Below, piece after piece: positions 4,845-32,753 of a stretch of 49,399 nucleotides of DNA (position 1 is its first letter; every line of letters begins with the position of its first letter). Under the pieces are notes generated by a model that saw only the letters and a list, made by a program, of their open reading frames with translations, was not told where the DNA came from and ran no database searches. The stretch is from Bacteroidota bacterium. Its GTDB lineage: Bacteria > Bacteroidota > Ignavibacteria > SZUA-365. A program made the position numbers and the translations under genes. Location of the stretch: contig JACZJN010000166.1 of NCBI GenBank assembly GCA_014860565.1, forward strand, positions 1 through 49,399. Direction: 5' to 3'.

Positions 4845-5426
4845 ATGAATCTGGCTCTGTTCAGTGAACTCTCCGTCAGGGAGTATTACGATTCGAATGT
4901 CATTCAGGCAGCGGAGCGCCGCGTGTTCAGCATCCCGGACGAAGAACTCTGCGCGCGTACCGGTTCTGATTTGATTCAAAACATCCTCGATGGATTGAGT
5001 CCGGAACGGCTTGTGCTGCTCGGGGCGGTCCATGAGACGACGCATCGCGCCGGCGATCAGAGCGTACGCATCCGGAGGTGGATGGAGTATTCCGGATCGG
5101 TTCGTCTGCTCACACTCCGCCCCCGTCAGTATTACGCTTCTCCTCCTCACGTGAGCGCGTTGCAGCCCTCTTCAACCGATCAGCCCGGGAGCATCATTAT
5201 CGAGCACAGCGTGCGCAGCATTGCCGAAGAAACGCAGTTCGACGAGTTCTGCGCCGCGGAATACAAGAAGATTACCGACTACGCGGTGTGGGTCAATGAG
5301 GATCTCGACTACTATGAACAGTCAGCCCGAAGCTGGCTCTTGACGCTGGTGGAGACAAAAAAGAAACGCCTCTGCATCGAGCATGAAGACGAGGCTGAAT
5401 TGTCTGCCGGCGAGCTCTACTCGTAG
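4845..5426 (+). CDS. Hypothetical protein, first gene of the RecQ-like helicase operon
   Basis: This is a soluble 193-aa protein with no signal peptide or membrane segment. GAGG lies 5 bases before the ATG. I recognise no family. It has a predicted mixed alpha/beta first half (LIQNILDGLSPERLVLLGAVHE; SGSVRLLTLRPRQYY) and a helical acidic C-terminus (WVNEDLDYYEQSARSWLL; CIEHEDEAELSAGELYS). No nuclease or nucleotide-binding motif is visible. It is followed after 101 bp by the large helicase on the same strand, which is itself overlapped by the coiled-coil gene. The three probably form one functional unit, in which this small protein could be an effector, adaptor or recognition subunit. That role is inference only. 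Confidence 0.7.
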   Translation: MNLALFSELSVREYYDSNVIQAAERRVFSIPDEELCARTGSDLIQNILDGLSPERLVLLGAVHETTHRAGDQSVRIRRWMEYSGSVRLLTLRPRQYYASPPHVSALQPSSTDQPGSIIIEHSVRSIAEETQFDEFCAAEYKKITDYAVWVNEDLDYYEQSARSWLLTLVETKKKRLCIEHEDEAELSAGELYS

Positions 5427-5527
5427 ACGGAGGACGCTCCTTCTGCAACCTTACATGGAATTAATGCGTTGCTCATTGCTTCTTAGGGAGTGATCCACTA
5501 TCATCATTCCATTCCCAAGGGCATACC

Positions 5528-28693: not shown

Positions 28694-28708
28694 ATCGATA
28701 TACTTTCG

Positions 28709-28746
28709 ACACTAAGACGCGAAGGCACGAAGACACAACGCACAAG
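28709..28746. repeat. 8-bp tandem repeat array, left flank of the GxxExxY gene
   Basis: GACGCGAA, GGCACGAA, GACACAAC and GCACAAGA lie in 8-bp register, in the 63-bp gap between mutS and the GxxExxY gene. The array is the reverse complement of the array at 29181-29212, about 20 of 23 bases identical in the core. Confidence 0.85.
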
Positions 28747-28756
28747 ATAAAAAGAA

Positions 28757-29152
28757 TCAGAGTATGATGCGCTTGATACCTGATTTTATCAGTGGAACAT
28801 TGAAATTGATCAGCAGGCCAAGCCGTAACGACGTCAATTTAAGATACGTGAGCAGCTGCGCCCGGTGGACAGGGAGCGTCTGTTCGACCGCTTTTACTTC
28901 TACGATGACGCACTCATGAATCAACATATCCAGCCGGTACCCACAAGGGACGAACAGATCCCGATACTGCACCGAAACCGGTATTTGTGTTTCGACCTTC
29001 ATACCCCGTGTTCGAAGCTCATACGAAAGAACGCGTTCATATGTCGATTCGAGTAACCCGGGCCCTAGCGCTGAATGCACCCGATATGCGGCATCGACAA
29101 TTGCTCTGGCGGTCGATTCCGTTTCGATGCCGAGCGGCGTGTACGTTTCCAC
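28757..29152 (-). CDS. GxxExxY family protein (possible PD-(D/E)XK-type fold)
   Basis: A 131-aa protein with the family signature GPGLLESTYE, the central block VQYRDLFVPCGYRLDMLIHECVIVEVKAVE, and LPVHRAQLLTYLKLTSLRLGLLINFNV before a basic C-terminus. The D...EVK arrangement resembles PD-(D/E)XK nucleases, but no activity is established to my knowledge. A GTG start at 29152 is chosen for the GGGAG site 7 bases upstream; the frame also allows TTG at 29176. The gene is bracketed by inverted 8-bp repeat arrays (28709-28746 and 29181-29212), which together look like a cassette inserted between mutS and ade. Confidence 0.88.
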   Translation of the reverse strand: METYTPLGIETESTARAIVDAAYRVHSALGPGLLESTYERVLSYELRTRGMKVETQIPVSVQYRDLFVPCGYRLDMLIHECVIVEVKAVEQTLPVHRAQLLTYLKLTSLRLGLLINFNVPLIKSGIKRIIL

Positions 29153-29180
29153 ATCTTTTCTCCCTAATATTAACAATATG

Positions 29181-29212
29181 GTGTCTTCGTGTCTTTGTGT
29201 CTTCGTGTTCCC
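29181..29212. repeat. 8-bp tandem repeat array, right flank of the GxxExxY gene
   Basis: GTGTCTTC, GTGTCTTT, GTGTCTTC and GTGTTCCC in strict 8-bp register. Read on the minus strand this is GAAGACAC repeated just upstream of the GxxExxY gene, inverted relative to the left array. Confidence 0.9.
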
Positions 29213-32320: not shown

Positions 32321-32389
32321 TCCGTTACGCGTCTTGTGAAAACATGTATCAACCTTGCGAAAATGCATATGAAAAAAAAGGCAAGAATC

Positions 32390-32732
32390 GGAGGAGTAAG
32401 GGAGGGAGGTTGCAGAGGGCGCAGAGAAGATTTTATCACAGAGGCGTGAGAGGCGCAAAGAGGGTTTTGCTGGATGGAGCGTCGTCCCGAGTAGCGTCGA
32501 TCCGCCGAAGGCGGGTGACGCGGATCGAGGGAACATGCCTCGATACGGCCGCCCTTCGACAGGCTCAGGGCGACCTACTCGGCATGACGAAGTGTGAAAA
32601 ATCCACTACGTTGGTCAACATTGCCCCGGATGAAATCGGAGGCCCCTCCCCAAAATCCTCGGCGCGCCTCTGTGCGACTCCGCGGTAAAACTCTTCTCCG
32701 CGCCCTCTGCAACCTCTCTCCCTTACTCCTCC
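32390..32732. repeat. Nested palindromic repeat element of about 340 bp
   Basis: The outer arms run inward from 32390 and 32732: GGAGGAGTAAGG at the left end is matched by CCTTACTCCTCC (32721-32732) and the similarity continues for about 85-90 bp, including GAGGTTGCAGAGGGCGC. The centre holds a second inverted pair (CCGAGTAG near 32487 against CTACTCGG near 32575), the palindrome TCGATCCGC/GCGGATCGA with CCGCCGAAGGCGG inside it, and CCCTTCGACAGGCTCAGGG. It fills the 504-bp gap between the divergent kinase (start 32320) and yicC (32825). Short frames inside it are repeat-derived, not genes. Confidence 0.88.
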
Positions 32733-32753
32733 CGTTCTCCCTGTATTTCTCCA

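Follow-up and report, generated by a model that had tools for sequence, protein, structure and literature searches.

What kind of repeat is the large palindrome that occupies the gap between a histidine kinase gene and yicC, and to which gene is it tied? The window analysed here, i.e. the whole stretch of 49,399 nucleotides, contains this gap together with a nuclease-family gene. The initial annotation had considered a MITE or a large RNA hairpin, as opposed to a single-copy sequence conserved without signs of mobility.

The palindromic element and its family

The element extends over positions 32385..32745 (361 nt; no strand assigned, as for the inner features below). It is a strong nested palindrome of the long variant, composed of an arm, a core of the 170-nt class and an inverted arm, and is a repeat rather than a single-copy sequence. 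Gene annotation of the window bore out its position between two divergent genes, the histidine kinase on the minus strand and yicC on the plus strand. Three layers were distinguished: outer arms, a second palindrome inside them and, innermost, CCCTTCGACAGGCTCAGGG. The left arm (32385..32469, plus strand) is an array of CRCNRAK-type units (GGGCGCAGAGAAGATTTTATCACAGAGGCGTGAGAGGCGCAAAGAGG) matching the family consensus at 88%, and the right arm (32650..32745, minus strand) is its inverted copy, matching at 93%. By repeat search the outer arms formed a 73 nt inverted match, 79% complementary; the consensus arm matched the window at 32390-32468(+) and 32652-32732(-). Units of the outer arms include CGCAGAG, CACAGAG and CGCAAAG.

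The inner nested palindrome, CGTCGTCCCGAGTAGCG ... CGACCTACTCGGCATGACG (32482..32591), belongs to a separate repeat family. The inner inverted pair is CGTCGTCCCGAGTAGCG / CTACTCGGCATGACG, and a second palindrome within the outer arms, CCCGAGTAGCG ... CTACTCGGCATGACG, encloses a perfect 9-nt inverted pair, TCGATCCGC / GCGGATCGA (32497-32505 / 32520-32528). Arms, inner pair and 9-nt palindrome, all claimed for this gap by the initial annotation, were confirmed, and the yicC promoter-like region does lie outside the element, just beyond its edge, where it is conserved between species. Of the four long copies, the window copy alone carried the hairpin CCCTTCGACAGGCTCAGGG, a 19-mer at 32552..32570. 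When up to two mismatches were allowed the genome contained it twice, which ruled it out as the repeated unit. Both this 19-mer and the 9-nt palindrome are passengers in the interior of the long variant, the former being a minor one. The outer arm, by contrast, is repeated about 31 times in the genome.

Folding of 32385-32745 yielded -213 kcal/mol, compared with -136.6 +/- 5.5 for 100 dinucleotide shuffles (z = -14; 0/100 as good). The structure is therefore far more stable than shuffled sequence, and a large RNA hairpin is possible according to this folding model. Rfam 15 displayed no matches above gathering score within the window.

In the genome of origin (G000; 4.75 Mb, 223 contigs), a search returned three more full-length copies (77-80% identity) as well as numerous matches to the arms alone. 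With the 81-nt arm consensus, about 31 arms were found there; of three congeners, G001 had 27, G002 had 17 and G003 had none. These copies, together with the fact that the site is empty in the closest relative (L057), contradict the view of a single-copy sequence without signs of mobility. The arms (~81-95 nt) are arrays of the degenerate heptamer CRCNRAK at steps of ~9-10 nt. In the contigs read from the own genome, most of the arms formed 14 convergent pairs in intergenic gaps, with spacers of 59-67, 81-87 or 167-183 nt. A GAGTAG core is restricted to four of the 14 pairs, which correspond to the 167-183 nt class and include the window copy; it was also encountered without arms, for instance in tandem on contig C121. 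The tandem clusters on that contig (L047, 2650-3320 and 5880-6390) consist of the nested palindrome GTCATGCCGAGTAGG / TATCGAGGCA; they belong to the family of the long-variant core, are devoid of arms, and no partner gene was identified for them. The palindrome of the window is one copy of a dispersed, gap-filling family, and it is the arms that define this family.

GxxExxY genes and their matching arms

A gene of the PD-(D/E)XK nuclease family GxxExxY (PF13366 / TIGR04256) is located at 28757..29176 on the minus strand of the window, with profile scores of 138 bits (Pfam, cut-off 22) and 144 bits (NCBIfam, cut-off 35). On either side of it are inverted arrays built of CACGAAG-type units, upstream at 29181..29210 (CACGAAGACACAAAGACACGAAGACAC, minus strand) and, inverted, downstream at 28708..28746 (CACTAAGACGCGAAGGCACGAAGACACAACGCACAAG, plus strand); this arm family differs from that of the element at 32385. 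Two further GxxExxY genes were found in the same genome, on contigs C191 and C9. The C9 gene lies between arms of a third sequence. The C191 gene (5556-5909) displays an upstream arm only (5387-5468), plus an adjoining minimal element, and this arm is 96% identical to the family consensus of the window element. The cognate gene of the element is therefore the C191 copy and not the one in the window. In G003, which lacks the window arm family, a single GxxExxY gene is found near yicC, with different arms.

The protein is a full member of its family by profile, residues and predicted fold, the latter indicating a superfamily and not an activity. Residues D83, E93 and K95 of the PD-(D/E)XK triad, as well as E43, Y46 and Y111, were invariant among 91 aligned class proteins, and Q107 was nearly so. 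The alignment-based model (pLDDT 91, pTM 0.83) had its best fold match in SSO0001, a Cas4-family protein (Z 9.7 over 100 residues, rmsd 4.3). Numerous PD-(D/E)XK proteins came next, among them Hjc resolvases with Z near 7 (7.4); tRNA splicing endonucleases were among the weak Foldseek matches. Sequence searches of solved structures with GxxExxY gave no match, PHROGs gave none for three GxxExxY proteins, and PADLOC returned weak Cas4 matches for one of these three only. Copies broken by a single stop codon were observed at L203, L224 and L237 and represent decaying copies. Spread of the gene on plasmids was rejected, only 6 of 72,556 plasmid records displaying a match.

Matching arms were sought by aligning each upstream flank with the reverse complement of the downstream flank, mispaired flanks of other GxxExxY loci serving as control. 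Within the class, 64 of 93 pairs scored above the 95th percentile of mispaired controls and 38 above the 99th, imprecise boundaries at the truncated loci L105, L111, L131 and L132 being expected, if anything, to lower this count. Among 75 cross-phylum loci (Bacteroidota, Planctomycetota, Chloroflexota, Cyanobacteria, Acidobacteriota, Verrucomicrobiota, Proteobacteria, Omnitrophota, Nitrospinota and others), 41 exceeded the 95th and 22 the 99th percentile, and a single one of 26 yicC control loci lay above the 95th-percentile score. The cross-phylum matches to GxxExxY included Flavobacterium frigidimaris and Mucilaginibacter psychrotolerans. About a third of the class loci were without a clear arm pair. 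Arms vary from locus to locus and have in common the unit CRCN(A/G)A(G/T), i.e. CRCNRAK, the density of which was 15.9-18.5/kb in the inward-facing 150 nt compared with 2.0-2.5/kb at a distance of 600-1150 nt, with a unit-to-unit spacing that peaked at 9-10 nt. The unit was not enriched next to RAYT genes (0.96/kb) or 23S-IVP genes (1.8/kb). The occurrence of GxxExxY genes inside their own matching arms in at least 10 bacterial phyla suggests an undescribed nuclease-repeat partnership.

The arms are also specific to their genomes. When the arms of six GxxExxY loci were compared with six genomes, nearly all dispersed copies were found in the genome of the GxxExxY locus concerned (a1 in G005, a2 in G008, a3 in G033, a4 in G009 and a6 in G091), the exception being a5, common to G011 and G009, which are of one genus. 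The dispersed palindromes of each genome mostly bear the arm of its own GxxExxY. Across 119 class genomes, three-unit arrays gave 2990 matches versus 117 for the reversed pattern. Arrays and gene co-occurred: the median number of arrays was 28 in the 81 genomes with GxxExxY versus 1.5 in the 38 without (Mann-Whitney p = 4e-9, a value made optimistic by relatedness), and at least 10 arrays were present in 55/81 versus 5/38 genomes. Fifteen genomes with GxxExxY displayed two or fewer arrays, and G013 and G012 displayed 37 and 19, respectively, despite having no GxxExxY match. The order relatives G012, G013, G014 and G015, with 7-37 unit arrays and no match to the gene, are in three of four cases only 70-79% complete; they may have lost the gene, lack it in the assembly or have some other partner.

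Such mismatched genomes, and the presence of arms beside unrelated genes, are what would be expected if some other host or mobile factor spread the palindromes and GxxExxY genes merely settled in or beside them. This explanation is unlikely, as arm pairs match at GxxExxY loci in many phyla, arm families are common to the nuclease locus and its genome, and the units are absent from yicC, RAYT and IVP loci. RAYT genes (PF01797) were likewise rejected as the arm partner, both by the unit density of their flanks and by G002, which has no PF01797 match yet carries 17 arms. Long inverted repeats of other sequences surround the RAYT genes at L034 (contig C91), L303, L304 and L296; these loci are ordinary REP/TIR-type neighbourhoods alongside the GxxExxY system.

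Turnover of arms at orthologous sites

Palindromes of this kind fill intergenic gaps, often between convergent gene ends and just past stop codons, and arms also adjoin unrelated genes. As palindromes and genes alternate in places, an integron-like cassette array was considered; it was rejected on gene content, the genes concerned being ordinary and syntenic between congeners. In G005, G008 and G009, which belong to one genus, GxxExxY stays beside sua5, with a neighbour protein 92-93% identical, and its arms differ in each of the three genomes. The same turnover was observed at dispersed sites. Several orthologous gaps compared between G008 and G009, or between G009 and G005, contained a palindrome in both genomes, the arm families being species-specific and different (L275:2194-2303 vs L277:3209-3307; L275:4280-4390 vs L277:5294-5400; L274:7128-7237 vs L276:1756-1861; L279:2485-2591 vs L292:2532-2667).

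Comparison of G000 with G001 uncovered several states. At C191c the two genomes had one family in common but opposite spacer orientations (score 58 inverted vs 11 direct), and a weaker inversion was found at C31 (18 vs 6). Another arm family occupied the C95 and C160 sites in G001, and the C27, C5 and C7 sites displayed remnants or half elements. The yicC gap contained no element in G001 (L057) and an element of another family in G003; no target-site duplication was evident at L057, the one clean empty site, the flanks of which have diverged. A spacer is common to C160 and C191c within G000 (score 47) while C160 of G001 holds another family, so that copies have moved or been converted since the split. 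The orthologous spacers of L036 (8520-8606) and L312 (G001 C46) are inverted at about 85% identity, which points directly to inversion or re-insertion inside the palindrome. In some genomes, such as G033, minimal copies have their arms in the opposite order to the copy that bears the gene. The site data fit both independent insertion into favoured gaps and conversion in place; the latter is favoured, since the arms turn over at sites that recur.

These observations also bear on whether the palindromes act at the RNA level, as transcribed hairpins (terminators or processing sites), with GxxExxY processing RNA or regulating itself through its flanking hairpins. The very stable predicted RNA fold of the window element, the frequent location of palindromes directly after stop codons between convergent genes and the tRNA splicing endonucleases among the weak Foldseek matches are in line with such a role. 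It is nevertheless improbable: the uniformity of arms throughout a species and the inverted spacers require a DNA-level process, the genes on either side of the window copy are divergent, and the best fold match was to a Cas4-family nuclease.

Relation to known systems and a proposed mechanism

REPIN/RAYT and TIRYT systems consist of inverted doublets of short repeats that are extragenic and species-specific, and the corresponding repeat flanks a nuclease gene of low copy number (PMC3116915, PMC3733652). In REPIN/RAYT the enzyme is an HUH Y1 tyrosine transposase (PF01797) and the palindromes are of 20-40 nt with GTAG or CGTC tags (PMC3116915, PMC3733652). The system described here is similar in that its repeat both surrounds the enzyme gene and recurs at scattered extragenic sites in a species-specific manner. 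It differs in its partner, which belongs to the PD-(D/E)XK family PF13366 instead of the HUH Y1 transposases, and in its arms, which are CRCNRAK arrays of about 40-95 nt instead of tagged hairpins of 20-40 nt. The inner core of the long variant does contain GAGTAG, but this core is a separate family, and RAYT genes of the same genomes carry repeats other than the GxxExxY arms. In the open papers searched, GxxExxY (TIGR04256, PF13366) appeared twice, both times as an annotation only, with no assigned role and no link to arm repeats, and searches of open papers by arm sequence strings retrieved no description of the arms. The GxxExxY-arm system has other components, yet would work like the known REPIN/RAYT kind.

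Genes for 23S rRNA intervening-sequence proteins (PF05635; 23S_rRNA_IVP / four-helix-bundle genes, L329-L358) offer another parallel. They too are small genes within locus-specific inverted arrays, which scored above control at 21 of 25 loci; these arrays differ from those of GxxExxY in their 7-nt tandem-like units (e.g. GAGTNNT, CTGAGTC) and are not enriched in CRCNRAK. They are possibly a second, parallel system.

With insertion-sequence MITEs the present elements share a short length, the lack of autonomy, terminal inverted repeats and dispersal (14 convergent pairs), and this part of the MITE interpretation stands, as does the empty congener site. Orthologous sites, unlike those of MITEs, display arm replacement and spacer inversion. 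That the element is an ordinary MITE moved by a conventional insertion-sequence transposase is very improbable, since inspection of arm neighbourhoods and a profile search with PF01797 revealed no parent transposase with these ends (DDE/IS or other), the gene inside matching arms being GxxExxY, target duplication was not seen at the one clean empty site with its diverged flanks, and the Y1/RAYT genes of the own genome bear different repeats.

The yicC-side element thus probably belongs, as a non-autonomous copy, to a population of repeats tied to GxxExxY, a REPIN/RAYT-like arrangement on an unrelated nuclease. The nuclease gene is few-copy, can keep its chromosomal address and has its own inward-facing CRCNRAK array in its flanks. 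The following mechanism can be envisaged, in which DNA would be the substrate. GxxExxY would bind this array, recognising the hairpin or cruciform formed by its own arm pair, and would nick, cut or resolve it. Repair or re-insertion would then copy the arm pair onto other palindromes or gaps, the arms spreading by conversion or transposition. Such a process would lead to arms shared by the nuclease and dispersed sites, to arm turnover, to spacer inversion and to a low gene copy number. Given the modelled fold, an enzyme related to Hjc and Cas4 that acts on cruciform-capable palindromes is a natural, though unproven, reading.

More tentatively, and with somewhat less than an even chance of being correct, the population might be subject to a homing-like drive in which the nuclease of each lineage imposes its own arm on intergenic palindromes already in place; sites would be inherited, but arms would change together with the nuclease locus, and spacers would flip. 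If so, this would constitute a second, independent partnership of the REPIN/RAYT type, spread over at least 10 bacterial phyla. Irrespective of such a drive, the link with the arms provides GxxExxY, a family of unknown role present in 81 of the 119 genomes sampled from one class, with a likely partner and substrate, and accounts by one rule for intergenic palindromes of the CACAGAG / CACGAAG / CGCAAAG type. The upkeep of extragenic palindrome populations could then be studied in a second system with an unrelated enzyme fold, in which the matching arms would predict the substrate of each enzyme and could be tested gene by gene.
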